The position numbers and the translations under genes are program-made. Below are positions 13,900 through 58,744 of a DNA stretch of 64,000 bases, in pieces; the stretch's first letter is position 1; each line of letters starts with the position of its first letter. This stretch comes from Meloidogyne chitwoodi (taxonomy: Eukaryota > Nematoda > Chromadorea > Rhabditida > Meloidogynidae): positions 496,001 through 560,000 of the forward strand of contig JACZZP010000004.1 of the NCBI GenBank assembly GCA_015183035.1, written 5' to 3'. The notes under the pieces were generated by a model. That model worked only from the letters and a program-made list of their open reading frames with translations. It was not told the origin of the DNA and ran no database searches.

Positions 13900-14580
13900 G
13901 AAAAATATGAAAAATTTAATTTTTAATTATTTAATTGCTATAGTCTTTGTTATTCTACGACATAGGCCCTGTATTACCATTCTGTATTATTTTTGTAAGC
14001 CAATTTTGTTTTGGCTAATTTAATTTAATAAATATTTTGTTTGTTTACTTTTTTAAGAGATAATAATTTATTTTAATTAATTAAATATATCTATTGCTTA
14101 AATTAAATCTTTCTAATTTTATTAAATAAATTAATTAAAATTAAAAATTATTTTAAAAATTTAAAAATATTAAAAATTTCATTTACTAATTATTTAATAA
14201 ATATTTGTCTTTCTAGATAGTTATGTTCTTCGTGTCTTTTCAGATTATTATTTTTGCAAGTCAAACTTATTTTGACTAATTTAACATAATATTTTAGGAT
14301 AAATATCATTATCAATAGTGTACTTTTAAGATAAAAATTTTTTTTTAATATTTAATAAAAAATGTTTACCACAAAAATAAAATCCTTTTCTTAATAAAAC
14401 TAATTTTAATTAAAAAGTTAAAAAAAGTTTTGAAACTTATGAAATATTTCATTTAATAATTATTATTTAATTGATGTATTTCTAGATAATTATGTTCTTC
14501 TCTTTTCCTAAGACCTATTCCAGCACATTATTTTTGCAAGCCAATGTTGTTTTGGCTAATTTAATTTAAAATTTATTATG
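13900..14580 (+). repeat. Sm-site/hairpin elements, three + strand copies
   Basis: Copies at 13988-14020, 14249-14280 and 14529-14560 just upstream of the receptor gene. Each has an AT-rich upstream block with AATTATTTAAT, a spacer that differs in each copy, then TATTTTTG(T/C)AAG and a short hairpin (GCCAA...TTGGC; GTCAAA...TTTGAC; GCCAA...TTGGC) followed by TAATTTAA. The change GCCAA/TTGGC to GTCAA/TTGAC is compensatory. The T-rich motif resembles an Sm-protein binding site placed before a 3' terminal stem, as in snRNA, SL RNA and SmY RNA. Whether these are transcribed is unknown. Confidence 0.5.
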
Positions 14581-14626
14581 AATTATGAAAATATTTTTTT
14601 TTAGAATTTCAAATATATTTTAATAA

Positions 14627-17449
14627 ATGGAAAAACTGTTGGGAATATCAAAAGTATTTTTGTCAATTATAGGCATTTTATTAAATTCAAGTGTTATTTA
14701 TATTACTATTAGAGCTAAATGGTTACATTTGCCTTGTAATTTACTTTTGGTTTGTTTTAATTTTTGTAATTTAATTTTATTGAATTTATATAAGGCTTAT
14801 AGTACATTAAGAGGAGAGATTATTTTTGATAATATAATTTTGAAAAAAAGATTTTTTTAAAAGAACTCAGATAAATAAGTCTAATGTCCATCTCCTGACC
14901 TATCAGGCCAGATTTTTTTGTGTCCTTGTCTCTGCACTCCTTGTTTTTTTAGTTATCTTGAGTTTAATTCTTGACCGAATTAACACTGTAAAATCAGGCA
15001 GAATCCGGTTAGGTTCTACCAACAAAATCAAGTAAATCCGAAAAAAATTAATTTCTGGGCACTAAAAACAATTATTATCCTAGACAATTCATCATCCAAA
15101 TAAGCCAAATATAACCAAAATGTTACTATTAAGACTAATATTTTGAGAATCATTTCCTTAAATTTAAAAATTTATCAATTATTTTATTTAAATTAAAAAA
15201 AATATTTTTTTAGGCAGCATATGAATTCTGTATTCTTTCATTTGGAATTAATCGTTTATTTGTGGCCAGAAATTTAATATTAGGACATCAATTAATGTCT
15301 ATGTTTGAATGTTTTTGTTTTACTGCACCTTTTCTCATACTTTTTGTTTCTTCTTTTGTTTTAATGACAGCAATTGCTATAGACAGACTTATTTCTGTTC
15401 TTATACCTTTAATGTAATTAAATATATTTTTTAATAAATTTTTACACACCAAAATTAATAAGTGAATATTTAAAATAATTATAATGAAGGTTTAACAAAA
15501 CATGCACAAACATGCACGAACAAAATGTTAACTAACCATAACTGACCACTGTCTCTCCGAAGGTTTACTTAATCTCTCGTTTGTAAGAGACGTAGAAAAG
15601 TAGAGGCAGTAGAGAAAAATTTACAATTCCTTTTGTAAAATTCCTTTTCATTTTATACAATTTTTTCTCTACTGCCCACTACTTTTCTCTATCTCTTACA
15701 AACGAGAGATTAAGTTAAGTTATGGTTAGTTAATAATTGTTCGTGCATGTTTTGTTAAACCTTAATTATAAGGCATATAATTTCCTTTCAGCCTAGTTAA
15801 TAAATGATAAGGAAAAGCCTTGATCACGGTAGATCGCACTCAATCTTTTATTATTTAAACCTTCAGAATTATTTTTTCAATGAAAAAATAATTTTATTTT
15901 TAATTTTTAAGCTATAATCATTTAAACAAAAAAGTTTACTTTTCACTTGTTTCAATTTTTTTAATTACAAATGCTTTGTTTCACACTTTTATTGCTTGGA
16001 AAGAAGTTGATGATGTATCAGGCAATACAACGTTATTTTATATTATTTTAAAAAAATTTAAATTTTACTTTATTTTTTAGTTTTAAAGTAAAATGTAATG
16101 GAATAACTTCAACTTTACATCAAAATGCTATTTATTTTATGTGTATTACTCTGTTTTTTGAACTTTTGAGTGCAGCTATTTATATTAAAATTTGGTTTTT
16201 GTTGCGGCATGGTCTCAGGGATAATTGTAAATAAATTTATTTAGCTTAGAAAAACTAAGCTTGCAAAAATAACAGATTCGATTCAAATTGGTTCAACTAA
16301 TATTTTAGAAAAAATAAATACATTTAAAATTAATTAATTAAAATATTTTATATTATTTTAAAAAATATACCTATATGTAAATATCAAAGATTTATATCAT
16401 TATTGTAAAAAACCGACAGATATGCATTTAGTAAATATTTTGATAGTTGCCGATTACATTGCTAATATTACATAATTAGAAAATTTTTTATTTTTAGCTT
16501 AGAAAATCTAAGCTTACAAAAATACACAACGACACTATAGCAGCCCGCAGCCCATAATTATATCAAAAATAAATACATTTAAAATTAATTAAAATATTTT
16601 ATATTAAATTATTTTAAAGGATAAAATTTAACTTGATCCTTTTTTCACTAATTTTGTCACACATTAATTAAAAAATATACAAGAAATTTTCTATAATTAT
16701 TTTGTATTAATTCCTTAATTAATTAGATATAAGGTTTTTAAAAAATACAATGTAAAGAACGTATTTAATAATACGAGTATCCAAAATATAATCTAAATTA
16801 CGAGCATTCAATTTAAAAATTAAATAAATAGTCTTTTCTGTTATGCAAAAAAAGTCCGCAAGATTTATCCGCAAACTTAATATTTTTTCTCATAAAAGAT
16901 ATATATTTTTATATTTTACTCAACTTTTATACAATTAAAATAACACAACTTAAAAAGAAAATAATTTCTTGCGAATAAATAGGTTGTGTACCTAAACATG
17001 AAAAGTTCCTTATACAAATTCCAAATTTTTCATAAAATAAAATTATTTAAAATTTAAATATTTATTTTATTTATTTAGTAGCTACAAGGCGTTTATTTAA
17101 ATCTTTATCATGTATTTTACTCATTTCATTATTTGGTTTTACATTTTATACAAATTATTATTTATTTGCCAAAATTGCTGGAATTCCAAATTTTTGGGAG
17201 CCAAAAGAAACAGCATTAACTTATATAGCATTTCAATTAGCTAATTATTTTGCTTTAATTGCTTGTTGTGCAAATGCTCTTATTTTATTTAAATTTAGGT
17301 TATTTTAATTTATTTTAATATTTCTTTTTTAATTATTTTTTAGTGTTGAATATAGACGTGCATTTCTTCGTTATATTCCTTTTCTTAGACGTTTTGCTAA
17401 AAATTTGTCAAATAAAAATAGAAGAAACCAACAAATTAAGGTAAAATAA
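14627..17449 (+). CDS. Serpentine chemoreceptor, srsx-like 7TM GPCR
   Basis: Six exons: 14627-14749, 15214-15413, 15912-16031, 16081-16226, 17079-17298 and 17344-17449; about 304 residues. All phases agree. Exon 1 has TM1; the join at a GTTTGT donor makes a normal TM2 (CNLLL+AAYEFCILSFGINRL). Exon 2 carries TM3 and IDRLISVLIPL, the DR-x-x-S-V-x-x-P signature of srsx/rhodopsin-like nematode receptors. TM4 is in exon 3, TM5 in exon 4, TM6-TM7 in exon 5. The cytoplasmic tail is basic (FLRRFAKNLSNKNRRNQQIK). Expected to act at the plasma membrane of sensory neurons; ligand unknown. An acceptor-like TTTTTTTAG precedes the start by about 20 bases. Intron 2 holds a MITE (15486-15763). An alternative last exon after a CAG at about 18134 is possible. 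Receptor fold is fairly certain; the subfamily is less so. Confidence 0.8.
15486..15763. mobile_element. Palindromic MITE in receptor intron 2
   Basis: Long inverted arms begin AAGGTTTAACAAAACATGCA and include GTCTCTCCGAAGG (left arm), CTCTCGTTTGTAAGAG and CTCTACTGCC. The related element at 54927-55222 shares these internal words but has the tip CAGGGTTGTCCAAAACAT. No open reading frame. Confidence 0.65.
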
Positions 17450-18020
17450 AAGCCTTTAATTTATTTAATAAATTGTAAATAATATTTGTCCAATAATGTG
17501 ATATTCTGATACATATTTTATTTAAAAATAAAATCAATTACTTATAAACAGTGCTTGGAAATTTTGATTTTGCTCGTACTCGTACCTCGTAGTACGAGTA
17601 TTTTTTCCCCTCGTACTCGTACTTGACTTCATAGTACGAGTACGAATTTTGGTACGAGCTTCCAAGCACTGCTTATAAAGACATAACTTGAGTATTAAAA
17701 GATAAAAAATATTGAAAATACCTAATTTAGTGAAAATACGAAATTTCAGTTTTTTAATTAAAAAAAACAATTGTTATAGGTGGGGATAATTTATAAAAAA
17801 TATATCGGTCCGTTATTTCGAATAACGTTAATATATGTATATATCTGATCAGTCCATTTTCTATTTACTCAATTAATTTTTCTCTTTCTCTTTCTATAAT
17901 TATCTGCTTAATATTAATTAATAAAGTTTTGTTTTATTAAAAATTGAGAATTTAAAAAATTAATTAAAAAGAATGGGGTCCATATTATATTTTTGTAAGC
18001 TAAATTATCATTTAGCTAAA
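16241..18020. repeat. Sm-site/hairpin elements, three copies
   Basis: Minus-strand copies at 16241-16272 and 16495-16526 lie in intron 4 of the receptor (stem AGCTTAG...CTAAGCT after TTTTTG(T/C)AAGC). A plus-strand copy at 17988-18020 lies downstream of the gene (AGCTAAAT...ATTTAGCT). Same architecture as the other copies. Confidence 0.5.
17552..17675. repeat. Word-repeat inverted element (CTCGTACTCGTA type)
   Basis: Tips CAGTGCTTGGAA and TTCCAAGCACTG are exact inverses. The interior is repeated variants of CTCGTACTCGTA / TAGTACGAG. An open frame on the minus strand here is an artefact of the repeat. Confidence 0.6.
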
Positions 18021-23724: not shown

Positions 23725-24515
23725 ATTTTTTAGCCTAGGCAAAACTAAGCTCCCAAAAAATTAAACTGTTGTTGGTAGTACGTGAATAAAAATTAATTAT
23801 TATATTTAATTATATAATTACCTGATTTAAATAATACATACTTTTTAATTTAAATAATTCTGAATAGTTAAATACAAAAAACTCAAAATTTAATAATCCG
23901 TAATTACCGACACTAAATTCAAAAATTACTATAATTTAACCTTTTTCTCAATAATAAAATTGCTTTATTACTAGAGAAGATGTGCTAAAAATAATTTATA
24001 AATAATTTAAATTCTTTTTTTGTCTTTTCTAAATTTATTAAAAAAAATTTTAGCTAAATTACCAAATATATCATTAACTAGATTTAGCTCATGAGTAGTG
24101 TGCAAAATAAAATTATTATTATGTTTATGCCAAAAAAAATCCATGAAAAACTCCAATCCTTCTAATTCTTAAAAAAACTCTTAGCTTAGATAAACCTAAG
24201 CTCCCAAAAATATTTTTTTAAAAAGAAAGCACACATTCAAACAAAAAATTTTTAATTTTATATATAATTATCTAATTGAAATAATATATACTTTTCATTT
24301 AATTGTGAAATCTAACCAATTCCTAATTTATCAACCCATAAAAATGAGGGACACTAATCAAAAAAGACGTGCCTCTAAATTAAAATGTTCTTTCTAAAAT
24401 TGCGTTTATTAAAAAGATGTTGCATAAAATCGAGAATTTAGAATAATTTTAATTTTTTTTAATTCTCTAAAAAATTTTAGCTTATGTTAGAAAAACTAAG
24501 CCCCCAAAAATACAC
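23725..24515 (-). repeat. Sm-site/hairpin elements, three - strand copies
   Basis: At 23729-23759, 24180-24212 and 24477-24512. Read on the minus strand, each shows TATTATTTNAAT..TAATTATATA upstream, a copy-specific stretch, a run of T ending GGGAGCTTAG or GGGGGCTTAG, and a pairing partner (CCTAGGC, TCTAAGC, CATAAGC). The first keeps a G-U pair. The conserved upstream TAATTATATA is shared with the copies at 44.4-46.0 kb. Confidence 0.45.
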
Positions 24516-29400: not shown

Positions 29401-31624
29401 GAGTACAAGGCGTTTGCATTAAGAGTATTGCAGCAAATCGATTCTCAAAAATATGAACTTCCCGATTAAAAAATTTTTTGAAAATTTTCTCGAAATTTGC
29501 TAATAAAAAATTTGCAAAATTCTCAATTTTAAAAAACGAAAATTATAAAATTTTGACCCAAATTTATTATCTATTCGTGGATATCCAATGTTATATCCGT
29601 TTTTTCAAGATATAGTCAATTTGATAAAATTTTAATTATTTTTATTTAAATAAAATCTTTCCCAAAAACAGAAGCAAACTAAAAAAACAAAATTAAATTT
29701 TTAAAGGATATTTATGTCCTTGGATGTCTACAACCTTTACGTACTTTATTTGACTCACATGCTTTACATATTGGAATGATTGTTCTTTCAATTATATTCC
29801 CAGTGGTTGGTTGTTTTTAATTATTTAGAAGGATTTTCATAAAAAAGCTTAAAAGATGAGAAAAATTGAAATAAAATTTTTGAAATTTTTGTTCCAAAAT
29901 TTTTTTTTCAATTTGTAAAATCAAGAAAATTTTTGTTTGGTCATTTAATCCATTAATTATAATTTATTTTAATATTTAAAGTGTGTAACTGTATGCCTCT
30001 CGCAATGTTTGGCAAGACAAATAGATTACCAACATTTTTTGCTTAGAAGAGAGCAAAGACGAATAGCTAGAAATGAAAGAAGAGAAAGAAGATATTTGGA
30101 ACAAAAAGGAGAATTTAAAATTGTAAAAAATAAGGAAAGAGCTCTAATTAAAGCACGTGTGATTTTATTTTTAAATTCTTAAGAAAATAGTTGAAAAATC
30201 AAAAATCCTAAAAATTATTAGAGAATTTTAGGAAAAACTCTCTTGCAAAAATAAATAGGGCCAATAAAAAAGGAAGGAAAGAGGAACATATTTGCAGAAT
30301 TTAATACACATAAATTAATGGAAAATTATAATTTTGTATATTAAGTAGTTTCTCTAAAAATTTATTTTTCAACTTTTCTAATAATTTTTGGATATTCTAT
30401 TGGAAATGGTGCTTCTATTAGAGCATTTATATATTAAAATTTTAATTAAAAAATTATTTAAGGGAGAACAAAACAAAAAATCAGTAAAACAAAATGTACA
30501 ACAAACAAAAGAAAAAGAAGAAAAAGAAAATAATAATAATATTGATGTTGTTATTCCTCTTAGTAATAAAAGAAGAATTTCTCCTCCAAAAGTTAAGCCA
30601 CCACCTACACCAAAGTTTTAATAACAAATTAATTTAATTTATTTATTTATTTTAAAGAAATGATGATGAAGCAGCTCATTTAGGAACAGCAATTAAAGCA
30701 GGAAAAATTGAATGGAAGGTAAAGTTGTTTTTTATCTGTTCCTACCTTTCTGCTTATTTTCTCTTACATATCCTTTATTTATATGTTAAGACAAAAAAGA
30801 AAAGTAAATAATAATAAAGTATGTATAATAAATAGTTTACCTAAAATCAAATATTATTAATAAATATTAGCAAAAGTAAACTTCTGCTTACAAAAATACA
30901 TTGGAAATGGCTCTAGTTCCTAAGACAAACAACCAATAGATGGGATAAAACAAGTTTATAAATTTCATATAATTTGTGTTAATTAATATTAAGTATTTTA
31001 AACAAAAAAAATATTTCTAAAAAAAATTATGCGAATAAATATATACAATATTAATTAATACAATTTATTTAACAAATATGTATAGGTAGCATTTGAATTG
31101 TTAATGTTACGGTTTTACTTTAATTCTTCTCTTCATTTATATTTTTGTAAGCGGAGTTTTTACTTCTGCTAATATTAAAATAATTAAAAATTTCAAATTA
31201 TTTTAAAAAATTTCCAAAAATTGCATAAAATATTTTATTTAAAAAATTAAATTTAATTAATTAATTAATTTAATTTTAGATAGCAAAAGTTGGAACAAAG
31301 TCAAAATGTGAATCAAGAGCTGCTAGTTTCTCTCCTCTTCGTAATATATTTATTAAAAAAGATAATAATGAAAACAACAAAAATTTTGAAGGAAAACGTA
31401 AATCAATGACTCTTGATAATTGTCCAAATAATAAAAAAAATAAAAAACGGGTAATAGAAAATAATAAAAAATTTGAAAAACAAAAACAACAATTAAAGCA
31501 GAAAAGCCATAAAAATGATATTTTTAATTTTGAAAAATTAAAAAATTGTAAAAATAATTTTCCTGAGCCAACTGCACCACCAATGTATTTTACTATGCAA
31601 TTACAGCAACATCATTTTAATTAA
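26470..31624 (+). CDS. Tetraspanin with a long basic cytoplasmic tail
   Basis: Twelve exons: 26470-26647, 26881-26981, 27862-28050, 28149-28214, 28906-29031, 29070-29155, 29231-29375, 29707-29805, 29982-30158, 30463-30614, 30658-30718 and 31280-31624; about 574 residues with consistent phases. After a 70-residue basic N-terminus comes TM1 (LKWLCFIINFCIF), then TM2 (LLASIGLCSGVVSLFGMFGA), TM3 (CVFFAYLSLVVSTCLLFLL), a large extracellular loop with the hallmark CCG (LECCGSTTFHDW), PYSCC and GC, and TM4 (IGMIVLSIIFPV). The tail after TM4 is about 280 residues, Lys/Asn/Gln-rich with a proline-rich PPKVKPPPTPK segment. Most tetraspanins are 220-300 residues with short tails. It should organise membrane microdomains; the tail could bind cytoskeletal or signalling partners, which is inference. 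The least certain junctions are the donors after exons 7 (CT/GTACTT) and 8 (GTG/GTTGGT). Confidence 0.8.
27535..27690. repeat. Fragment of the palindromic MITE family in tetraspanin intron 2
   Basis: Contains CATTCGAAAGAGCT, CTGAGCCGAG, an A-rich CGAAAAACCATAGGGGGGA and TTACCGCGGCTGCT, all shared with the element at 34757-35413. Only one arm is visible. Confidence 0.55.
28365..28625. repeat. Unclassified GC-richer insertion in tetraspanin intron 4
   Basis: A block of clearly higher GC than the intron around it (TGATCTGGGAGTCGGATCC, TTACTGGTGCTTATATAGT). Looks like a transposon or LTR fragment but matches no other copy in the window convincingly. Confidence 0.35.
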
Positions 31625-35764: not shown

Positions 35765-36134
35765 CCTATTTATAAAAAATAAGAACTAACTTTTGTGTTT
35801 GCGCAGATAGACGAGTAACACCAATAACTTGATATGTTTTTCCTCTCTGTCCAAAATTAGTTAATCGAATAGTAACTCCATTAAACGCATTTACTAATTT
35901 ATTGTGTTGTTTATCAGTAATATTAATATTATTGTCAAGTCGTTTTAATGGTAATTCCAAAATGTCAGCAATAAGATTAATTGCAGGCATTTTATTAAAG
36001 TTTTTTGCAAGTTCCAAATCATAATCTTTTATAATTGCACAAAAACGGCGATTAGTTTTTTGAATAAGAATTAATTTATAAAAGTCAAGAAATTTGAATA
36101 TATCAAGTAATGTTTCATTAGGTAGTTGTTTCAT
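35765..36134 (-). CDS. F-box / PAZ-fragment chimera
   Basis: About 122 residues if read as one exon. Residues 1-45 look like a nematode F-box (MKQLPNETLLDIFKFLDFY, then QKTNRRF), the Skp1-binding motif of SCF ubiquitin ligases. From about residue 50 the sequence instead resembles the linker and start of an Argonaute PAZ domain: MPAINLIADIL, then ITDKQHNKLVNAFNGVTIRL and GKTYQVIGVTRLSAQTQ, matching the order of the human AGO2 region with its KYRVCNVTRRPA segment. The rest of PAZ, the MID domain and the PIWI domain are missing. The frame stops after LVLIFYK, though AAAA/GTTAGT could be a donor; no downstream exon is apparent before transposon-like sequence. TTTCAG sits directly before AAACAATG, so it is either trans-spliced or has upstream exons. 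Could be a new fusion gene or a retained fragment of one. Confidence 0.6.
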
Positions 36135-40141: not shown

Positions 40142-43100
40142 TTTTTAAAATAAATTGACTAAAATAAATTTAATTTTAATTATTTTTATCAAAAATAAAA
40201 ATAATTAAAAATAAAATTTTTGTGTTAATTTTATTGACAATAAAATAATTAAAAAAATTTAAAGTGCGCAACATTCAATCATTTAATAAATATAAATATA
40301 TTTTTTAATTTATTTTTTTACCCTTTATTTATCTAAAAATTAAATTATATAAATATTTACTTAAATTTTAATTTTTTTTAATTTAATCTAAATAACGATC
40401 ATAACACATTAAAAATTGGGAAAAAATAAATAATATTTACTTTAAAATAAATTAATTAAAAAAAAAATATTTTTATTTAAAATAATGGGTACAACACTTT
40501 TTTAATTTTATAGTATAAACACATTTCATCCGATCGGTTGATTGTACGCAAAGTTAGAAAAACGCGCGTTTTTATGGGATTTTTTACATTTTCGTCAATA
40601 ACTATAGACCTACCGAAACAAAAAATTTCAAATTTTGGATTCTTTTAGAAAACATCTAAATAAATATATATAAAAAATTTCAGACCTCTAGGTTCTAATT
40701 TGGCAATTTTATAAATAAATGAAAAAAGCAACACTAATTATGGCAAGACCTAATATATAATTTAATTTTCACAAATTTATTTAAATTTACAAAATATATT
40801 ATTTTTGAAATATTAAATTATATATTTATTAATTAATTTTTATAAACTGATTGTGTTGCATGTGGACGTAGTATTATATTTTTGTAAGCCAGCAATGCTG
40901 GTTAATTTTAACTTTTTCTTATAAAATAAATGTTCGGGGTTAAATAAAATTCTTAAATATATTAATTAAAATTTCCTATTTAAAAAATTATTTTTTTTTT
41001 CATTTCCTTAAACATTTGCACAAATTAATAAATTTTTATATTAGGCTAAAATTTACGAGAATCACAATAATAAATTATTAAAACTTAAAAAAATTATTAT
41101 TTTAAAATATATCTATATTTTAATAAATCTTTATTTTAAATAAATATTGACCTTAAATAAATAAAATATTATTAAATATTTACTCTTTTATTAATGTGTT
41201 TTTAAGAAGAAAAAAAAACGGAATTTAATTGCGCGACAAAAATTAAAAAATATAAAAATGAGGACACTGCCTTATTTATTTAAGTTTATTTATTTATTTA
41301 AGTTTTGTGGCTCTTCTTTGATTTATGAGAAATATTAAGTTTAAAGTGCAGACAAAAAAAGTAAAAAAAAAGTTTAATTTTATTTTAACCAAACAATAAT
41401 AAAAATAAGTAATTAAAATAAATAAATAATACATTTAATAATGGGGGTGAATAAATATTTTATTATTTAAAAAAGATTTTAAATGAGAAAATAAAAAATA
41501 AATAAATTAATTAATTATTTAATATTTATTGATTATTAAAAATATTAATAAAATTAATAAAAATAAAATATTTTTATTAATTTTTTAAAATTTGACTCGA
41601 AAATTGGTGTAAGAAACATAATACATTATAAAAATAAATTAAATAATTAGCTATAACAAAGTTTAGCTTACAAAAATACAACATGATGGAAGCGAAGAGG
41701 TAGTTTAATAAAAATGTTTTATTTATTATTAATGTGAAAAATTTGATTTTTCACATTAAACAAAATTTTTAAAATTTTGTTTTTACGAAATTGTAAGAAT
41801 ATTTATTATGTATTTGGAAAAAAATTTTTTCCATAAATCAACGAATAGGCCAAAATAAAAATGGCAGACCGAAATTTGCGGTCAAAATCTTCTGGACTAA
41901 AACTAATTGTCCAAAACTTGAAATATAGAATTAATACAAAATTTTAAATAAATTATTTTACCCTTTGGATTTTTGAAAAGGCTGAAAAACTATTTTTTAT
42001 TTTTTTGTAAATTTTAGTGAGCGTCCGCAAAGTTTAGTCCGCAAGTTTTGTTATACCAAAAGATAAATAAATATAAAGTAAGTATTATAATTAAACAGAC
42101 TTACATCCTCTTTTTACTTATATTAAAACAAATTTGTAAATTTTACTTTCCTCAATCCAAATTAAATTTTAATTAATTTTTTAATTTTTTTTTTAAATTT
42201 ATTTATTTAATTTTGAAAATATTAAATAAATTTAATATTTTTATTTAAAAATCAATTTATTATTATTTGACTTTTAAGAAAAAGCAACTGTTAAATTAAT
42301 AAAAATATAACAATTATTTAACAAAATATTATAAACTTAAACTTTTGTTTAAAATAATAAATAAAATAATTTTATTTTATTTAAAAATTTATTAAAAAAA
42401 CATAATTTTTAGATTTTAATTTTTAATTTTTGTCTATTTAATTTTTAAAAATAACTATTTAGTAGATTTAATTAAATTAAATTTTTTATATAAGTATATA
42501 TAACCTATATATGACAGTTATTGAAAATCTTTTTGGTATTTTATTATTTTTGTAAGCCAAACATGTTTTAATGTTTAGGCTATTAATCTTTATTATTATA
42601 ATTTTATTTAATTTGAGATGTAATTTTTTAATTTTTTTTTTAAATTTATTTTAAACTTTAATAAAATTAATATCTTGCTTTTAAAATTAATCAATCTGCG
42701 TTAATTAAAAATCAAACAAAAATTAAGTTATTTTTATTGGAGGAATATATTGTAAGACGGACAAGTTTACTTCCAGCCTAGCTAATAAATGAAAAAGGAA
42801 ATCCTTTACTCAGCGGTTGGATGGTTAAGTGGATTACAGCCCTGCTTCGGAGAGCTCTCTTTACTATATCTCAACTATTTTAAATTTTCAAAAAAAAAAT
42901 ATAAATTTGTATATTCATTTTCAATAAGCATTTTATACCTTTATAAAATAAACTTTCAAATTTATTTTATTAAATTATAAAATTTAATTAATAATATAAT
43001 TAATTTAATTTAGTAATTGTCATATAGATTAATTATTAATTGTTTGAAGCTTTTTTATGATCTTGTTTTATTCCTTTTATTTTTGTAAGCCTAACACTTT

Positions 43101-43226
43101 GTTAAGGCTAATATATTTACATTTATTAATTTCTATTTGAGAAAAAAAAGAAAATAAATAACAAACTTAAATTAAAAATTTTTTAAATTAAATTTAAGAT
43201 AATCTCTTTTTAAATTAATTTAAAAA
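40142..43226. other. Intergenic, with Sm-site/hairpin elements
   Basis: Between the Cys-rich gene (-) and the MIF4G gene (+). Elements at 40876-40909 (+), 41646-41679 (-), 42544-42583 (+) and 43078-43112 (+); the last two have bulged stems AGCC-AAACAT...ATGTTTAGGCT and AGCCTAACA...TGTTAAGGCT. A GC-richer patch at 40525-40700 may be a transposon remnant. At 42770-42860 there is a SINE-like tRNA-derived head (GGTTGGATGGTTAAGTGG), preceded by CAGCCTAGCTAATAAATGA, which also occurs near 15790. No exon seen; the open frame at 42789 crosses the SINE. Confidence 0.55.
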
Positions 43227-46430: not shown

Positions 46431-46439
46431 TTATTTTTA

Positions 46440-47602: not shown

Positions 47603-47638
47603 TTGTTTATAATCTTTTACTTCCAGTTCACTAAATTA

Positions 47639-50600
47639 ATGATTATTCCTCCTTATAATTATTTTCTTTCGTATTTATTTACTTTCAAAGATGAAGATGA
47701 GACGGTGATTAAAACTACTAATACTACTACAATTATTTGCAAAACAAAAATGACTATTATAAATAATACAACTACAAATAATCTTTTAAGACATAATGGT
47801 CAACAAACTAAAAAATCGCCAGAAAGCAAAAATTACAGTTGGTTTTACAATACTACAAATTTCTCAGTTAATTGCAGCATTCCTAAATTATTTCCATCAT
47901 TATTTCTAACAATGTTTATTTTATTTGTTGGTTTAGAATGTAAGCTTTTAAATTGTTTTTAAAATTAAATTATTATTTATTTTTCAAGTTTTACAATTTC
48001 TGTATTTTTCAAGTTTTACAATTTCTGTATTTTTCTTGTTTTACAATCATTTGATATTTTTCAAGTTTTACAATTTTCTGATATTTTTCAAGTTTTACAA
48101 TTTTCTGATATTTTTCAAGTTTTACAATTTCTGTATTTTTCATGTTTTACAATCTTCTGATATTTTTCAAGTTTTACAATTTTCTTATATTTTTCATGTT
48201 TTACAATTTTTCTTTTATTTTCCGTTGAATAATTCTCTTTTCAGTTTGTTTTAAAATTTTATCTTTAAATTGTATTTATTGCATAACTGTATTATTTAAA
48301 TTTTGATTTAGCTAATTGTAAGTAGTTTTATATTGAATCTGTTAAGAATTCTTCAAGTTGCTATTTCTAACCGCTTTAATTTTAAATTATTTAAATAATA
48401 TAAATTATTTTTATTTTTTATTATTTTAAATTTAGCAATCATATTGGTATTATTGTTCTGGCTTTTAACGCGCGTCTTTGTTATTTTTGGGAGCTAAATT
48501 ATTTTAGCTAAAATTTATTTAACTTTATTTCTAAATACTTTAGGATAAAAAAGGCTTTTCTTTACAGGTTCAAATAATTTAAAAATAATGGGTTGAAAAA
48601 AAATTACATAAGATTAATTTAAGGACATTTTTTTCAATTTTTCTTCCATTTTCAAAACGATATGTGCGGCATCAAATATTTTTTATTTTTATGTGAAAAT
48701 TATTGCTTTAAATATTCAATAACTAGCTTTTTGCTATTTTGAAAAGTAAATGGCAGACAGAAGACGCGCGCCATTGACCTCGACGGGGGGTATAAAGTTG
48801 TAGGGGCCGTCACAGCTTGTTGGAACCGAAATGGAATGAAGTAAAAAAAGGGGGAAAAGAGAAAGTAATGAATATATTTATTTATAAGTTAAAGAAAATA
48901 CAAAAACTTGTTTTTGTATTTGCGCGTCAGATGTTTGTAAAATAAATTGATAAAAAAAAAGAAAAATGAGTTAGTTGATTTATTTGGTATTTATTTATAT
49001 GTTTATATATTTGTATGTGTTTGGATTAATTGATAATTAATGGGGGATTAATCGAAAATAAGAAAAATGATAAAAATTGTTAACAATAAATTTTAAAAAT
49101 ATTTATTTTTTATTTTTAAATGAAAAAAAATTTAAAAAATTTTCCTTAAATATATTTAAATTATTTTTATTTAATTGCCAATATTTTTTTTCAATTTTAC
49201 ATTTTTGGTTATGTTCTCCCCTTCTAAACATCATTTAAAATTATTTGAAGTAAAAATATAAATAAATTTTAGCTAAAGATTATTTAGCTCCCAAAAATAA
49301 ACGAACATACAAGGCACCTCGCCTGATAATATCAAAATAATTGCTAAATTTAAAATAATAAAATAAAAATAATTTATATTATAAAGAATTGTGGATATCA
49401 TTTAACCTCATATTTCATACCTACTTTTTACTCTTCCCTTATTTTATTTATGCATTTGTATCGGATTGATAGAAATTGCCGGATTGGGTAAATTTTCATA
49501 AATTTGAGGCTTCAAGTTTTCATAATATATAAAAGCCGACGTTTATGCTCAACCCGAACTTGATCTGAGGCATTTTAGATAGACCCGACAGAATCAATTA
49601 AAGGAGGAAGATTAAAAAGTAGGTATGAAATATGAGGTTAAATGATATCCACAATTCTTTATAATATATAAATTATTTTTATTTTATTATTTTAAATTTA
49701 AAAATTATTTTGATATTATCAGTTTAGATGGTTTGTGTGTTTATTTATTTTTGGGAGCTAAAAATCTTTAGCTAAAATTTATTTATACTATTTATTATTT
49801 TAAATACTGTTTAATTGATAAATTACAAAAATTTAAAATTAAAAAAAAAATCTGGAAATTAGAAAAAATTAATTTTTTTCTAATTTCACCTAAAATGTAT
49901 TTTTTTATTTCTATTTTCTTAATGTAATTTTTTTTAATTTTATTCTTTTTATTTTTTAAATTAATTTAAGACAATTTTCTTTGTTTTAATTTTTTAACGG
50001 CTTTTTTGCCTTTTAAGTGTCTTCTTTGTCTTTTAAGACTATTCTGTTTTGAACATTGTGTTTATAAATGATCTTTTTATGATGAAACTTAATTGTTTAG
50101 ACGGGAAAATAATTTATTAGATTAGATGGGGAGAAAGCGGAAATGTAACTTTTTAACTCGAAAATGGGGATTTTTTTGTAAAATTTTAAAAATCTCAATT
50201 CTGTCTCTCATCTCTCTTTCTCTAATTTAATCAGTGTTTATTTCTTACAATTTTTTATATTGTCAAAAATCATATGTATAAATCTGATTTTACATTATTA
50301 TTAAAAATAACCTTATTAATGAAAAATAAATTTATAATTTTTTGGTTTTTTTGTTATATTTTTGGAGCCTATTTGTTGGGCCATTTTATTACTAAACTAT
50401 TTTTATTTAATTTTTCTGAATTATTTTTCATTTTTTAGGTATTTTTGCAGCTAAAAATGACGTGGACAATGATATTGAAGAAGGAGAATTTTTTCATTCA
50501 TTTTTTAAATCTGACGATGATGAAAAACATCAAATTGAATTAAATGAAAAACAGCATTTTGATGAAGAAGAAATGCCTACTCCGCCAACTCTAATACCTT

Positions 50601-53600
50601 CATTATTGACTGACATAGAGTTATCTTCAAATTCAAAAGAAAGGTATAGGGAAAATTTATTTAAGCGTAGGAAATTACAAACTTAAGTGTGTAAATTATT
50701 TTATATTTTTTAATTATCTTATTTTATATATTTGGTCAATTAGTTTATTCAAATTAAATTCTAGTCTTATTCATTTACAATTGTAAAATTCAAAATAATT
50801 GTTTTACAATTGTAGTAAAACAGAATTAACAACTTTAACTACTACAAAAAAGAAATCTACAATTACCTCAACAACAAAAACATCTACTACAATTACAACT
50901 ACTGAAAAAACAAAAATAATAGACAAAGAACAACAAATGTTAAAATCTGCTGAACGTTCGTCCTTACTTAGTAGAAAGCCTACAAGAAAAAGAATTCCTG
51001 GAGAATGCAATGATTTACATGGTTTGGATAATTTTTTATAAAAATTTTTAACTTTTTTTTGCTCTCAATCAATAAAACCACTTTTTGGAAAATATCAAAT
51101 ATTTGATTAAAATAATTTTTTAATTAATTTATTTATAAATTGTCTGCTTTTTGTAAGGATTCTTCTTTATATTTTTGGAAGTTAAGTAATTTTCTTAACA
51201 AAATATTTTAAACTCGTATTAATTAATACATCGTTTTTAACGAGTTGACCTCTTATAATATTTTTTTAATTTATTCAATATTTAACCATATATTTATTTT
51301 TAGATCTCTGCAAATTTTGGACTTCAATTGATGAATGTAAAAATAATAAAGATTGGATGCGTGATCATTGTCCTGTCAGTTGTGATGTTTGTACTAATGG
51401 TAATTTTAGAGGAAGAAATTGTGTTTAATTAAAGAAAATTAAAGAATTTAAAAATGACAACAATTTTTAAATCTCAAAAAATTTCTTTTATTTATCAATT
51501 TTAGGTTCAACAGTTTGTGTTGATCGTCATCGTCTTTGTGATTTTTGGGCATCAATGAAAGAATGTGAAACTAATGCTGTTTGGATGTTAGTAAATTGTC
51601 CTCGTTCTTGTAAGGTGAGAAAGAATAACTTTATTTTTTAAATTATTTTTCCCATTTTCTAAATGTAATTTAATATTATTAAAAAAATTGTCACTAAAAA
51701 ATTGTCACTAAAATTATAAAGTTCATTAAATATTTAAATATAGCTATGTAAAGGAGAATCCGCTCGTCGGGCAGAATTGGGAATATTTTTGGAATCAGAT
51801 TGTACTTTTGTTTCAACACATGAAGGTCAAATAATTAATAATAACAATATTAAATTTAATTAAATATATAATTTTAACAGATACTACAATTCGTCGTACA
51901 GTTTCTACATCAGATGTCCGTGTCAGTAATAATGCTTTTGGATGTTCTCCTAAATTGACTAAACCAAATTGTAATAAAAATCTCTGCTACCATTTAAAGT
52001 TTCGAACACTTGATGGTTTGTTTTTATATTTTAATAAATTATTTTGAAAATATTTTAATAAAATATCTTATTTTAACTTTAATTATATATTTTTTTATAA
52101 TATTCCTAAATTTAGGAACTTGTAATAATTTGGATAAGCCTTTGTTTGGTGCGGCATTTATGCCGTTGGCAAGGTAAATTGTTTTATTTTTTTAATTTTA
52201 TATTTTAAATATTTATTTTTTTCCAAGACTAAAGGAACCAATCTATGACGATAAATTAGCAGCACCAGTTGGTAGGATTTTTAAAATATTATAATAATTT
52301 TATTTAATAAAAGTTAAATTTTTAATAAATTTTAAAACAGTTCAATTAAATAATAAATTAATTTTATTTAGCATCAATTAATCACTTAAAACCCTCTTCA
52401 AGAGAAGCTAGTCGATTGGTTTGTTTTATTTACTAATTTAATTAATTATACAATTTTTGGTGTTATTAAGATGCTCAGTTCAACAGCAGAAATTCCAACT
52501 AAATGGAATGCTCTTCTAATGCAATGGGGACAATTTATTGCGCATGATGTTTCAAAGACAACAATGTTAAATAATCAAGTAATTTTAATACTTAATAAAA
52601 AGTTTTGAATCTGATACATATTTTTACAATTGTATTTATTTTTTGTATTTTACATAGTTCACAATTACATATATTCTGTATTTTAGTTGAATAGTTTTAC
52701 AAATTATTTTTTTAGTTTTTTACAATTTTTTCAGCTTGATTAAATTTTAAACATTTGTACAGTTTTTTAATTTCTAAATTTGATTTTTATTTTTTTTATT
52801 TTAAATTATTTAAGTTGATTAAGTTTGTAATTTTTGTACATGTTTTTACAAATTATTCAAGTTGATTAAGTTTGTAATTTTTGTACATGTTTTTACATTT
52901 ATTCAGTTGATTAAGTTTGTAATTTTTGTACTTGTTTTTACAAATTATTCAATTAATTAAGTTTGTAATTTTTGTACATGTTTTTACATTTATTCAAGTT
53001 GATTAAGATTGTAATTTTTGTACATGTTTTACAAATTATTCAATTAAGTTTAAGTTTTTTAATTTAGATACCAATACACAATTAACAAATGAATCAAATC
53101 AATTTAAAATTTCTTTTACAAATATTTTGCAGATCTGTGCAAGTTGTCTTCCAGAAGGAGGTACATGCATTCCTGTTATGCTTAGTCGAATGGACCCAAC
53201 GTATATAATTTTTTTTAAATTTAACAAAAATATTAAGAATTAAAAAATTTAAAATTTTTCTAATTTTGTATTAAACTTTAAGATTTGGCCGATTTCTTTG
53301 TCTTCCAGTTGCTCGTTCCTCTCCTGTCTGTTTTTAAAATAAATCTAAATAATTATTAAAATAAAATTTTTTTTTAACTTTTATTTATTTTTAACTTTAA
53401 TTTACTAATTTATTTTTTAGGTATGCGGAACAGGAGAATCTGATAATGTTCGTCAACAATATAATGAAAATACAGCATTCATTGATGGTTCAATGGTTTT
53501 CTTATTTTTTTAAATTTAATTTCAAAAAAATTTTTTAATTAAATTTTTATTATTTTTTATACTAATAAATATATAATTAAAAAGGTTTATGGAAGTAGTC

Positions 53601-56600
53601 ATCGTGATCAATTTGTTTTTCGTCAAGGTGGATTTATGAAAACAAATGTACTTCGTTCTCGTGTTTTCCCCCCAGTAGATAATAATCAGAATATTATTGC
53701 TGGGGACGATAGAGCAAATATATTTGTTGGTTTAGCTGCTTTACATACACTTTTTGTAAGAGAACATAATCGGTAATTAATTTAATTTTTATTAAAAAAA
53801 CACAAAAACATACTTTACAAATAAAACCTAAAAACATGTTTTTACGGTTAGAGATAAACAAGTTTTAAAATTATAGAAAAAACATTTTAATAAACTTAGT
53901 TTTACTTAATAGTATTGCCTTACTTCTTCAAAAAACAAATCCTCATTGGGATCAAGATAGAATTTATTTGGAAACTAGAAGAATTGTTGGTGCTGTTATT
54001 CAAGTTTGTAATAATTTATTTTAATTAAATTTTAAAAAATTGAAATAAATATTATTTATTATTTTTAAAGAAAATAACTTATGAGGACTATTTGCCTAGA
54101 CTTTTTGGAAAAAAATTTGATGAACTTATTGGAAAATATTCTGGTTATAATCCAAATGTTGATCCTTCTATTTTTGTGAGTTTTATTTAATTAAATTTTA
54201 AATTTATTATCAAATCTCATATATTTTATAATTTCTTTAAAAACACAATTTTAAAAATTTTGCTAATACAAATTCCTATAAAAAAAATTATAATTCTTTT
54301 TCATCATTAATCAACTCAATTTATTTAATTTTAATGGATAAGCTGACATTTTGTTAGATATTTTTAACTTATTAATTTAATTTTTATTTATTTATTTTTT
54401 CTATGTGTTTTGATATTTTTTATATCATTTATTAATTTCATCCCAAATAAATATTTATTTATAGTCATAATTTATAAAAAAATTTTTTAACAAATTTTTT
54501 GTTTAATAATGAAAAATATTTTTTTTTTATTATTAATACTCAATACGAATTTCCTTATTGAATTTTCCGGCCCTAACTCAGTAATATTTTTGTGAGCTAA
54601 GCTATTTGCTTTAGCTAAATTAATTAATTAATTTATTTTTGTTTGTTTTTTAAAAAAGAATTCGAATAAATAAAAAACAAATTATTCTTAATTACTATTT
54701 ACCTAGAGTTCTTTTTAAAAATTAATTTTTAATTTTTTTTTTGCTTAATAAGAAAAATATATTTTTTCATTGTTAATCAATTGGAAATTTATTATTACGA
54801 TTAGCGTTGTATGCCCGTCACAAGAGAGTATTTTTGTAAGCTAAACTTTGTTTTAGCTAATTTATTAATTTTATTATTCTTTATTTTTTTGATTTTTTAA
54901 AATAAAATAAAATTAGAAGAATTATTATCAGGGTTGTCCAAAACATCACGAACAAATTGTTATTTGACCATAACTTACCACTGTCTCTCCGAAGGTTAAC
55001 TTAATCTCTCGTTTGTAAGAGTGGAAGAAAAGTAGTGGTCAGAGAGAAAATTGTATAAAATGAAAAGGAATTAATTGTACAAAAAGAATTTTAAATATTT
55101 TCTCTGCTGACCACTTCTTTTCTACGTCTCTTACAAACGAGAGATTAAGTTAACCTTCGGAGAGACAGTGGTAAGTTATGGTCAAATAACAATTTGTTCG
55201 TGCATGTTTTGGGCAACCCTGATTATTATATTTAATTTACAAAATATATTTAAAAATAAATATATTTTTTAATTTTTCTTTTCATAAAATGCAAATTTAA
55301 AAATTAAAACAATTTTTAAATTTGCTTATTATGAAAAATTAATTTTTCTATTCATTATTTATCAATTCGTAAATTAAACTCTTGTTGGTGATTATTTTCT
55401 TTTCTTTATTTTTGTAAGCTAAGTTTTGTCTTAGCTAATATATAATTTATTTTTTATTAATTTTATTATTGTCTCTTTTTTAATAGAAATAATTTAAAAA
55501 TAAATTATTATTTTTTCGAATAAATATATATTTTTAATAAATACTAATATTTATCTATACTTTCTTTAAAAATAATAATACAATTTTAAAAATTTTGTTT
55601 AAATAAATTTTTGTTTAATATCAAAAATTAATTTTTTCATTTTATTAATTAATTTAATTTTAAATTTTTTATTGACCCCTTTTGACATTCCTTATATTTT
55701 TGCAAGCTAAGGATTCCTTTAGCTATAGTACTTATTATTTAATTTATATTTTATTATTTTAATAATTCTCTATTTTATTTATTTTTTAAATAAACATTTC
55801 TTTTAATTAATATATCTACAATCTCTATAATTTGTCTACAAAATTTAAAAAATTATTTAATTAATTAATTATATACAATTTATCTTACCTTCTCTTATTT
55901 TTATTAAATTTTCTAAATTTTCTTTTTTAAAAAATTCTTTTTTTTAGAATGAATTTACAAGTTGTGCTTTCCGTTTTGGTCATGGAATGATTCAAGTATT
56001 TATTTATTTTTAATTTTTTTCTTAATTTAAAAAATTTATTTTTTAAGGAATTTTATCCTTTCTTTAATCAAGATTTTGCTCAGATTGGTAAAATTAAAAT
56101 AATTTATTTTTTATTTTAATTTTTGTTAAGGTGGAATACCTTTTAATGAAGGAATGTTTAAGTCTGTCCATATATTGTAAATTTTAAAAAATTAATTAAA
56201 AAAATATTTTTTAATTTTAGAAATAATGGAATTGATCCTTTAATAAGAGGTTTATTTTTAAAAAATTAAAAAAAAATATTTATTTTATATTATTATTTAA
56301 GGTTTAATGTCATTACCCGCAAGATTACCTCAAAGATTAACAATTTCTGTTACTGAAAAGATTTTTGGAAATTCTGATTTGGGGTAAAGTTTAAAATAAA
56401 AAAGTTTATATAAACATTGTTTATGCTTAATATATTAAAATATATATTTATGCTTATTTATCAATTAAAATATTTTTTATTATATGTCTTTAGTCCTATG
56501 CCAATAATTATTTTTGTAAGCTAAACTCTGCTTTAGCTAAAAATTTAAATTTTTTTACACAATTTAAAAATAAAATACAGATAATCTCATATATTTATAT

Positions 56601-58744
56601 CTTTATTTTGCTTAATATATAAAAGATTTATTTTATTCCTTTATTTATCAATTAAAATATTCCTGCTAAATTGGTTTTGATATAATGTCTTGTTATTTTT
56701 GTAAGCTAATCTCTGCTTTAGCTATTTAATTCTTTATTTTATTTTTAAATAATCTTTGGAAATACTACTAATTTAGAGAGTAATTTTAGAAAAATAATAT
56801 TTTTAATAAACATATTAATATATATACATATTTTCAGTATTTCTTTGCGTATTTTTAAGCATTTTTTGTTTTTTTTTAGCTCGATGCTTTTTTAGTATTT
56901 TGATTTTTGTTGTTTTTTTTTTAATTTTTTAAATGTCGACAATTTTTATTAAAAATGTTGGTTTTTGGTAAATATATTAAATTAAACTTTCAAAATATTT
57001 ACTTGCTGCGCTAAAAAGGTTTTGCATATTTTAATTTTTTTATCTCCGAGAACCCTGGTTTTCCTTAATATTTAGAAAAATTTATATTTATTTTTTATTT
57101 ATTTATTTAAATTTTTTTTTGTTTGAAAAGAGCCAACTTCTGAAGTGTTATTTTTGGAAGCTAAAATATTCTTTTAGTTATTTATTTTTGTTAAATTTAT
57201 TTAGAAAATATTATTTTTGTCAACTCAATTATTTTTTGCTTAAAATATAAAATTTAATTATTTTTTGATTAATTAAAAAAAAATTTTTTTCATCTTGTAA
57301 AAAATTGTTATATTTATTTTTTTGAAAGCTAAACAAACGCTTTACAATTAAATAATTTAGTATTTTCTTCTATGATTAAAAAAAAACTTTTTTGATTATT
57401 ATTATCTTTATTTTGCTTGATATTAAGAATTTATTTATTCTTAATTTATTAGTTTAATATTTTTTGTTCAATTGTTTTCTTCTATAGACTTCTTATTATT
57501 TTTGGAAGCTAAACTCATTGCTTTAGCAAATTATTTTATTTTTTAAATTAATTTGAAAATATTTTTCTAAGTTAACAACTTTAGTTAATAAATTAATATA
57601 TATATGCTTTATATTAAAAATCTAATTTATTCTTTATTTATATATTCAAAAATATTTTAATTTAATTGTTTGTAATTCCATCAGTTCGATTATTTTTTGG
57701 AAGCTAAAAACTTTGATTTAGCTAATATTTTTTAATTTAAATAATTTTTATTTTGTTTAATTTTAGAAAAATAAATTATTGCTAAATTCAATTAATATAT
57801 TTTGCTTAATATTAAAAAATAATTTACTTTTTATTTTTTCATTCAAAAATTATTTTTAATTTTATTGAAGAATGTAGTCCTTACTGTTTATTTTTGGAAG
57901 CTAATCCTAGAGTTTAGCTATCTAATTTTTTTATTTATATAAAAATTAACAAAATAATTTTTAAATACTTTAATTTATATTTAATAAATAAATTAATTAA
58001 TTTTAAGTTCAATAAATATTCAACGTGGAAGAGATCATGGAATTCCAGGATATATTGCTTGGCGTAATTTATGTAAATTACCTAAAGTTAGAGACTTTAA
58101 AGATTTAAATACAACTATTAGTAATGAAATTGTGAGGGAAAATTTGAAAACTTTATATAAAAGAGTTGAATTAATTGATATGTATGTTGGTGCTTTATTA
58201 GAAGATCCTATTGAAGGAGCTCTTATTGGTTGGGTATTTTTTAATTAATTTAAATAATTTGTGATATTATAATATTTTTAAATTAAATTATTTTATTATT
58301 TAAATTAAATTATAATTAAATTATTAATTTAGGTCCAACATTAGCATGTGTTGTTTCTAAGCAGTTCAAAGCTTTAAGAGATGGTGATCGGTAATAAATT
58401 AATTTTTTATTTTTAATAAAATTTTTTATTAAATAAATTTAATTTTTTAAAAAAGATTTTTTTATGAAAACAATGAAATACTTTCTAATGAACAAATTAA
58501 ACAAATAAAACGCGCAACTCTGTCAAGAATACTTTGTGATTCTGGTGATTCAATGAAAAAAGTTTGTTTTTAATTATTAAAAATTTAAAAAAACTAAAAA
58601 TTTTATTTTTTATAAATTTATTAAAAATATTGTTAGGTACCTAGACAAGCATTTAATCAAGCTAAGGCTGATGATCTTGTTGCTTGTGATCATATTGATT
58701 CACCCAATTATTTTAAATGGAAAGAGGATCCACTTAGTTTTTAA
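47639..58744 (+). CDS. ShKT-domain heme peroxidase (SKPO/MLT-7 type)
   Basis: About 26 exons over 11 kb; the first are 47639-47939 (or from an upstream ATG at 47603), 50439-50643, 50816-51021 and 51304-51399, the last ends at 58744. Order: N-terminal region with one hydrophobic stretch ([13 protein letters not shown]), acidic and Thr/Lys-rich linkers, two ShKT six-Cys domains ([14 protein letters not shown]...SCDVC and [14 protein letters not shown]...CPRSC), then an animal heme peroxidase domain. Hallmarks: [37 protein letters not shown] (distal His), [30 protein letters not shown] and EHNR (distal Arg), AFRFGHGMI (proximal His) and [14 protein letters not shown]. In nematodes such enzymes use hydrogen peroxide, often from a dual oxidase, to cross-link cuticle tyrosines or limit oxidative damage. 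The two acids that ester-link heme in mammalian peroxidases appear replaced (see findings). Two introns are packed with Sm/hairpin elements. Confidence 0.85.
47970..48215 (+). repeat. Minisatellite of about 27 bp in peroxidase intron 1
   Basis: Around nine imperfect units of the form TTTTTCAAGTTTTACAATTT(TCTGATA). The repeated open frame here (YNFLIFFKF) is not coding because it lies in an intron with no splice support. Confidence 0.75.
48745..48860. other. GC-richer island in peroxidase intron 1
   Basis: Contains GACGCGCGCCATTGACCTCG, a run of seven G and GGGCCGTCACAGC in otherwise AT-rich intron. Could be an enhancer, an alternative promoter or a transposon fragment; no open frame or repeat partner seen. 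Confidence 0.25.
49380..49668. mobile_element. MITE with about 50-bp inverted ends inside a head-to-head Sm/hairpin pair
   Basis: The left end carries AAGAATTGTGGATATCATTT, AACCTCATATTTCATACC and TACTTTTTA; the right end is the inverse. The 190-base interior has no open frame. It splits the shared AT-rich centre between the elements at 49269 and 49745. Confidence 0.7.
52830..53050. repeat. Minisatellite of about 45-50 bp in a peroxidase intron
   Basis: Five imperfect units built from AAGTTGATTAAGTTTGTAAT followed by TTTTGTACATGTTTTTACA. Lies in the intron between the exon with the distal His motif and the next exon. Confidence 0.7.
54480..55760 (+). repeat. Tandem Sm-site/hairpin elements in a peroxidase intron (four copies)
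   Basis: At 54584-54619, 54829-54860, 55407-55439 and 55694-55725, all on the gene strand and spaced 250-580 bases. Each unit has an upstream block (TTTGCTTAATA..GAAAAAT, then TTTTTCATT and TATCAATT), a copy-specific spacer, TATTTTTG(T/C)(A/G)AGCTAA and a partner TTAGCTA. A palindromic MITE (54927-55222) separates the second and third copies. Confidence 0.55.
54927..55222. mobile_element. Palindromic MITE in a peroxidase intron
   Basis: Tips CAGGGTTGTCCAAAACAT and ATGTTTTGGGCAACCCTG. Arms of about 120 bases share GACCATAACTTACCACTGTC, TCTCCGAAGGTTAACTTAAT and CTCTCGTTTGTAAGAG. Related internally to the element at 15486-15763. Confidence 0.75.
56410..57925 (+). repeat. Tandem Sm-site/hairpin elements in a peroxidase intron (seven copies)
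   Basis: At 56509-56540, 56693-56724, 57149-57180, 57315-57344 (weak), 57496-57528, 57690-57724 and 57889-57920, spaced roughly 170-450 bases, all on the gene strand. They fill a single 1.6-kb intron just before the exon with [10 protein letters not shown]. Each has TTGCTTAATATTAAAAA-like sequence upstream, a private spacer, and TATTTTTG(T/G)AAGCTAA with a pairing TTTAGCTA. The array suggests local amplification of one unit. Confidence 0.55.

Follow-up and report, generated by a model that had tools for sequence, protein, structure and literature searches.

Clustered units with a hypervariable segment, an Sm-like site and a covarying hairpin in Meloidogyne chitwoodi: a likely family of RNA genes

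U7 small nuclear RNA (snRNA), like the viral HSURs, consists of a short free antisense 5′ end, an Sm site and a 3′ terminal hairpin, about 60 nt in all; in U7 the single 5′ end is conserved and directed at histone pre-mRNA, and the Sm site is of a special type. The spliced leader RNA also joins a short 5′ part to an Sm site, for which the consensus is RAU(3-6)GR. SmY is described as having a conserved first stem-loop 5′ of its Sm site (PMC11229312). Nematode PIWI-interacting RNA (piRNA) loci are reported to have an upstream motif that descends from snRNA promoters, ~28-nt precursors and a low-melting stretch after the RNA, and those of C. elegans are clustered (PMC6436959). The 21U-RNAs are reported as lacking in clade IV and others (PMC4323106), and the 21-22U RNAs of Strongyloides as clustered and without an upstream motif (PMC9203780). 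Here, in a window of 64,000 nt of Meloidogyne chitwoodi (C25:496001-560000 of a 47.5 Mb, 30-contig genome), we describe about 50 copies of a unit in which an upstream box, a segment unique to each copy, a T-rich Sm-like site and a covarying hairpin follow one another in fixed order. The sequence makes it likely that these units are a family of RNA genes with a hypervariable 5′ segment, be they of an Sm-class or of a 21U-like kind.

The units share features with each of these systems. The order of parts and the ~60 nt total proposed for them are those of U7 and the HSURs, but their 5′ ends number in the hundreds and are unrelated, and the conserved histone-pairing 5′ sequence of U7 was not found in them. 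As in SmY (RF01844, one match over the cut-off in this genome), an Sm-like site is followed by a 3′ stem; unlike SmY, the units have no first stem-loop, and identity 5′ of the site is at chance. They share a short 5′ part and an Sm-class layout with the spliced leader RNA, but no conserved ~22-nt leader and no conserved GT after the unique segment were found (of 174 rows, only 26% have a G at the second base before the A of ATTTTTG). Finally, they resemble type I 21U-RNA (piRNA) clusters in being many tiny separate units in few chromosome domains, with a box at a near-constant distance, a unique segment of about 21-28 nt and AT-rich sequence after it. They differ in having TATTTcAATT and not CTGTTTCA (this Ruby motif was not found upstream of the units), in their conserved T-rich site and covarying hairpin, in showing no visible 5′ U rule and in belonging to a genus from which PIWI is reported absent. 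As tested, the family lacks a defining feature of each of SmY, U7, 21U and spliced leader RNA. Rfam gave nothing at the units, either in the whole window at the gathering score or in 13800-58100 at E<=1, and a literature search (open-licence papers, titles and abstract openings) found no such family described in Meloidogyne.

A scan of the window for ATTTTTGNNAG (at most one mismatch) followed by a stem returned 55 rows, whereas ten order-2 Markov simulations returned 7-27. Six rows judged by eye to be chance (24475, 26713, 37409, 56119, 57561 and 63744) were removed and one bulged copy (42453-42591) was added, giving 50 copies, 36 on the + strand and 14 on the - strand, between 13896 and 57924. 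The ~46 copies claimed by a first-pass annotation of this DNA are thus borne out and exceeded, and the seven stems that it quoted are all present, six in the stem scan and AGCC-AAACAT/ATGTTTAGGCT in the bulged copy. That annotation had rightly recognised the element, its covariation and its Sm-like layout, and had overlooked the box upstream, the clusters across the genome and the unique segment before TATTTTTG, the feature that tells most about the family. A whole-unit model trained on 95 copies recovers 35 of the 50 at E<0.01 and the bulged copy at E=0.17; since 14 are absent from its list at E<=1, the model misses members. Its sole match in the window beyond these copies, 7408-7538 (E 0.056), is without TATTTTTG and was dropped as chance. 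The copies are as follows, bit scores being those of the whole-unit model.

13898-13923, +: copy 1, upstream promoter-like box (expectation-maximisation motif)
13960-13984, +: copy 1, unique GC-rich segment ACATAGGCCCTGTATTACCATTCTG, 5′ end placed at the GC step, box+62
13988-13995, +: copy 1, Sm-like TATTTTTG
13998-14018, +: copy 1, hairpin AGCCAA..TTGGCT plus AA
13896-14026, +: copy 1, whole unit, 63.0 bits
14158-14287, +: copy, 52.5 bits
14447-14567, +: copy, 50.5 bits
16233-16362, -: copy, 68.0 bits
16486-16613, -: copy, 75.9 bits
17902-18027, +: copy, 56.3 bits
23722-23850, -: copy, 67.1 bits
24173-24300, -: copy, 69.0 bits
24469-24606, -: copy, 58.1 bits
28215-28344, +: copy, stem AAATTTCC/GGAAATTT, 36.0 bits
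28617-28752, +: copy, stem AAATTTCC/GGAAATTT, stem scan, outside model list, ends approximate
30210-30350, -: copy, 47.2 bits
30859-30988, -: copy, 51.4 bits
31039-31180, +: copy, 48.4 bits
31983-32110, +: copy, 51.9 bits
32488-32629, -: copy, 58.1 bits
32675-32811, +: copy, 39.9 bits
33068-33199, +: copy, 50.0 bits
33429-33558, +: copy, 61.0 bits
33842-33983, -: copy, 45.9 bits
34180-34308, -: copy, 53.8 bits
36208-36335, +: copy, stem TGTCAAT/ATTGACA, 39.6 bits
36537-36667, +: copy, 49.3 bits
37469-37600, -: copy, 61.7 bits
37868-38000, +: copy, 58.6 bits
38425-38555, -: copy, 55.3 bits
40785-40913, +: copy, 64.7 bits
41643-41777, -: copy, stem scan, outside model list, ends approximate
42453-42591, +: copy, bulged stem AGCC-AAACAT/ATGTTTAGGCT, model E=0.17
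42985-43119, +: copy, 40.6 bits
44129-44257, +: copy, 72.4 bits
44332-44466, +: copy, top window match, 77.7 bits
45325-45455, +: copy, 71.4 bits
45902-46032, +: copy, 70.8 bits
46304-46430, +: copy, 59.3 bits
48389-48519, +: copy, 58.1 bits
49261-49388, -: copy, 59.1 bits
49657-49783, +: copy, 41.7 bits
51071-51205, +: copy, stem GTTAAG/CTTAAC, stem scan, outside model list, ends approximate
54486-54622, +: 54-58 kb subfamily copy (upstream TTG(C/T)TTAATA-like), stem scan, outside model list, ends approximate
54730-54865, +: 54-58 kb subfamily copy, stem scan, ends approximate
55308-55443, +: 54-58 kb subfamily copy, stem scan, ends approximate
55596-55730, +: 54-58 kb subfamily copy, stem scan, ends approximate
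56410-56545, +: 54-58 kb subfamily copy, stem scan, ends approximate
56595-56730, +: 54-58 kb subfamily copy, stem scan, ends approximate
57050-57185, +: 54-58 kb subfamily copy, stem scan, ends approximate
57218-57355, +: 54-58 kb subfamily copy with degenerate hairpin, stem scan, weak
57398-57532, +: 54-58 kb subfamily copy, stem scan, ends approximate
57593-57728, +: 54-58 kb subfamily copy, stem scan, ends approximate
57790-57924, +: 54-58 kb subfamily copy, last in window, stem scan, ends approximate

The units mostly read TATTTTTG(T/G/C)(A/G)AGC..GCTAA, and a motif search over 144 rows found upstream a 26-nt box, TTacatAATATatAaTATTTcAATTa, which starts 82-97 bp before the A of ATTTTTG in 129 of them. 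Inside it lies TATTTcAATT, whose C is present in only 34% of rows.

The covarying hairpin proposed at first pass withstood analysis. Among 95 aligned units, seven of the eight pairs change on both sides; 92.6% of cells are paired against 68.7% after shuffling and 195 are changed on both sides against 56, none of 500 shuffles being as high on both, and the covariation score is 0.646 against 0.205. When the partner column is slid by one, pairing falls from 92.6% to 35-47%. These 95 rows were preselected for having a stem; tests on sites selected by the box are free of this choice. Indeed, sites chosen by the box and TATTTTTGNRA have a stem of at least 6 pairs in 130 of 148 cases, against 23% with the arms of other copies. 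The box used there had been learnt on hairpin-bearing rows, and a held-out repeat was made: learnt on the window and tested on sampled stretches L009-L028, it gave such a stem in 78/89 (24% arm-swapped), and tested in the reverse direction, on the window, in 27/29 (25%). Combined, the held-out sites with box and TATTTTTG have the stem in 105/118, against about 24-25% arm-swapped. Sites with low box scores have it in 75/262, near the control rate, some of these being real copies of the 54-58 kb type.

The mispairs carry a strand signal. Over 139 of the 148 sites, with G-U and A-C treated alike, G-U occurs 56 times and A-C 25 times (p 0.0008). Equal numbers would be expected of a DNA palindrome, so that RNA of the stated strand is favoured, and the sequence points to a hairpin that acts as such an RNA. 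In predicted folds, the hairpin is formed in 112 of the 118 units that were kept for box distance and stem.

Just before the site, the units have no sequence in common. When 174 rows are aligned on the A of ATTTTTG, no consensus emerges at -25 to -5, where the GC content is 0.31-0.38, against 0.06-0.22 at -36 to -83, with a drop at -4/-3 before the Sm-like site. On the other side, in 120 rows anchored on the box, GC rises from 0.22 at box+61 to 0.31 at box+62 and 0.38 at box+63. The tip, taken from this GC step to -5, has a mean length of 23.4 nt (sd 3.1) in the 118 units and a GC content of 0.36; immediately upstream it is 0.11, and further out 0.20-0.22 (p 2e-15). In 21 hand-picked hairpin-bearing units outside the training stretches, the values are 0.34 against 0.08 (p 3e-5).

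We then compared identity with chance along the unit in pairs chosen on one end only. In 318 pairs chosen by the hairpin, the excess is +0.12 in the box and +0.19 and +0.12 in the next 12 bases, and is down to +0.02 by box+56 to +61. In 166 pairs chosen by the box, the hairpin has +0.27 and +0.20, and the sequence up to site+39 still has +0.11. At -25 to -5, it lies between -0.02 and +0.03 in both sets; gapless anchoring loses register with distance, but this segment adjoins the anchor, and a gapped comparison concurs. Even among the 35 closest pairs (mean flank identity >0.85), which include neighbours about 300 bp apart, 33 have tips of less than 0.60 gapped identity, random tips having a mean of 0.46 and a 95% point of 0.60. 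A neutral tip should match the GC content of its surroundings, 0.11-0.22, and not have 0.36. As the tip differs freely while its composition is constrained, this suggests that each tip carries its own information. Outside the closest-pair set, the tips at L022:682 and L023:8775 have one difference in 29 bases, so recent duplicates exist; the unit at L022:629, 53 bp from L022:682, has the last 18 bases of that tip. To look for targets, the 118 tips were compared by blastn-short with the sampled stretches, and the best of the 39 listed among 5562 non-self matches covers 17 nt with one mismatch (E 0.049). Forty joined tips gave no match in the genome, the tips themselves included, in a search too insensitive to count.

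Genome-wide, three patterns gave 215, 80 and 259 matches, against 7, 0 and 0 in reversed controls, the 259 being those of the strict pattern. The matches are clustered. The 80 of the narrower pattern fall on C25 (49, at 0.20-0.97 Mb), C26 (21, at 1.7-2.6 Mb), C16 and C17 (9 together) and C8 (1), while the 100 listed among the 259 strict matches lie on C25 (77, from 0.12 Mb on), C16 (11), C17 (10), C1 (1) and C12 (1). Because the 26 strict matches in the window all sit among its 50 copies, the true number, counting duplicates, may be close to 500. Indeed, C16 duplicates C25 around 0.6-0.65 Mb, in reverse, as all five compared units of C25:648970-651550 are identical to it over all 935 bases; the small contig C17 probably duplicates the same region. 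This identity leaves the allelic comparison uninformative on divergence. The whole-unit model gave 155 matches at E<=0.05 across 53 sources (359 kb). It found none in the 20 loci around U1, U2 and SmY (L031-L050), and none in L001, L003-L006, L023, L025, L026 and L028, although L023 had supplied a training row; L002, on C1, has four within 3 kb, with different and GC-richer stems. All these counts depend on the stretches sampled, 16 of the 20 from C25 having been chosen for holding or adjoining pattern matches.

We favour the reading that the units are Sm-class-like RNA genes with a guide function, to which we give a probability of roughly 0.55. Each copy would be a tiny independent RNA gene, in which the 26-nt box, starting about 62 bp before the predicted 5′ end, would serve as an snRNA-type promoter. 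The product would be an RNA of about 60 nt, made of a ~23-nt gene-specific 5′ segment, the Sm-like UAUUUUUG and, at the 3′ terminus, the covarying hairpin, which ends in UAA. Sm proteins would bind the site, the hairpin would protect the 3′ end, and the free 5′ tip would base-pair with a target in the manner of U7-type antisense snRNA. With several hundred genes, mainly on two chromosomes, the several hundred tips would constitute a guide-RNA repertoire. That the units are transcribed, start at the GC step, bind Sm proteins and pair with targets is what we infer.

An snRNA-type promoter is plausible. One of the genome's two U6 promoters has AGCGA..TTTCAATTT, read as AGCGACACTTTTCTTTCAATTT, where one unit copy on C1 has AGCGATTATTTCAAATT; TTTCAA stands at -51 and -50 in this U6 gene and this unit. 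The position of the box agrees with a SNAPc/proximal sequence element (PSE) promoter, and one U6 gene has TTTCAATT in common with a unit. These likenesses to U6 were picked after the fact. With at most two mismatches, TTTGCATAATAGCGATTATTT occurs three times in the genome, always at units of C1 and C12. At about 3478-3538 of L020 (- strand), a GGGTTTCGGGTATCGGG-like degenerate tandem lies immediately upstream of one unit, at the expected box position.

The genome's own Sm RNAs offer a comparison for the site. U1 has AAATTTTTGAG before its last stem, U2 has CAATTTTTGGA, and SmY has ACATTTTTTGGAG before TCCCAC..GTGGGA. The units have a stem-loop directly 3′ of the site, an Sm-class feature, and the layout of a T-rich site followed by a stem, pointed out at first pass, is also that in which U1 and SmY of this genome end.

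Several observations weigh against the reading as Sm-class guide genes. The motif ATTTTTG was itself a criterion in choosing sites, and the base that follows it is a pyrimidine (T or C) in 94 of the 118 units and a purine in the genome's U1, U2 and SmY; an Sm identity is weakened by this. The first-pass proposal of an Sm-class snRNA-like family is thus upheld as to an RNA-gene family, by the covarying hairpin, the fixed order of parts, the box and the excess of G-U over A-C, and loses ground at this base. Only 79 of 118 folds leave most of the T-rich site unpaired, and the openness of the tips (0.60) does not exceed that of shuffled tips (0.59). The G-U bias may be common by descent, related copies not being independent. 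The box score is under the background 95% point at 11 of 14 U1, U2 and SmY promoters, despite more positions having been scanned there, and there is no clear initiator (YRNT) peak at the predicted 5′ end. The excess of identity declines from box+38 onwards and has vanished by about box+50 to +56, upstream of the tip, so that it is composition, and not an edge of conservation, that places the tip's 5′ end. Finally, one tip searched genome-wide with at most three mismatches matched only itself.

The next explanation, which we regard as rather unlikely, is that the units are 21U-RNA-like small-RNA genes, the ~23-nt segment being the mature RNA or most of a ~28-nt precursor. The box would drive short RNA polymerase II transcripts, TATTTTTG and the hairpin would be a pausing or termination signal outside the stable RNA, and a worm-specific Argonaute would take up the guides, since PIWI is reported absent in the genus. 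The anatomy is indeed that of a nematode piRNA locus, with clustered units, a box about 40 nt before the unique segment, a piRNA-sized segment and a high-to-low GC step. The box TATTTcAATT is near the Ruby core CTGTTTCA as quoted in PMC9203780, and Strongyloides, also of clade IV, is reported to have its 21-22U RNAs clustered on X (PMC9203780). However, T is not preferred at the predicted start (0.38 at box+62 against 0.40 overall), and there is no T peak at box+62 to +65, the frequency being 0.58 at box+60 and 0.53 at box+67. The covariation and the G-U bias point to a hairpin acting as RNA, which is more than an AT-rich pause requires. This genome has 38 Piwi-domain matches, all Argonaute clades taken together. 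Second-stage juveniles (J2) have no mature germ line. No piRNA-like reads are reported from M. incognita J2 (PMC4524723), and PRG-1/PIWI is reported as undetected in both M. incognita and M. hapla (PMC5934874).

A non-autonomous transposon or other repeat, in which the hairpin would be a DNA structure for a transposase or a chromosome-pairing protein and the tip host sequence or neutral filler, seems improbable to us. The copies are many and occur in both orientations (64 + and 54 - among the 118 units), and their clustering in chromosome domains can be likened to that of pairing-centre motifs, which also cluster in such domains. The uniform divergence along the unit that the first-pass annotation would have expected of a transposon was not found: box and hairpin are co-inherited while the stretch between them is at chance, so a transposon fits poorly. 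Moreover, the unique segment lies between these two parts at a near-constant distance, its GC content is well above that of its surroundings, unlike neutral filler, and the G-U excess departs from the equality of a DNA palindrome. As to an ordinary Sm RNA (SmY, U1 or spliced leader RNA) of which relics or additional copies had spread by duplication, the tails are laid out like those of the genome's SmY and U1, but the units have no Rfam match to any of the three and no common sequence before the site, and decay would not preserve a hairpin by paired changes, which makes this origin very improbable.

The units may bear on the genome defence of PIWI-less nematodes, which is an open question; 21U genes are thought to derive from snRNA promoters. 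Clustered arrays that combine an snRNA-like tail with a piRNA-like unique segment would connect snRNA and 21U genes, or form a separate guide system. More speculatively, a lineage without PIWI may have evolved, from snRNA-type genes, several hundred hard-wired Sm ribonucleoprotein guide RNAs with hypervariable 5′ tips, which would replace the piRNA system or target pre-mRNAs or foreign RNA. The question can be tested with small-RNA libraries because the sequence, strand and approximate length of each predicted tip are given.

The window holds other features. A repeated open reading frame (ORF) family with GIPIGQP-like stretches lies at 4629-12767, and the sequences near 9282 and 12822 (- strand) are identical over 75 bases. 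An F-box ORF at 35769-36128 (- strand) has only two matches, a M. graminicola protein at 83% identity and a M. hapla protein at 55%; both are named PAZ-domain proteins, and one has both Pfam domains. At 15479-15771, a long fold-back repeat whose arms measure 34 nt (94%) and 43 nt (88%), with 69 nt between those of the inner pair, gave a sub-threshold match to MIR8643 and is probably a fold-back transposon. Tandem arrays occur at 47978-48210 (27 bp units), 52803-53043 (46 bp) and 59095-59249 (25 bp, TGACATTTTGTCACTTTTTTATTAG), and an array of 17 copies of TTTAAATTAAA at 39512-39703. Finally, a CTCGTACTCGTAC-rich repeat at 17521-17699 is flanked by an inverted repeat containing AGTGCTTGGAA, and L008 and L029 have stretches similar to it.

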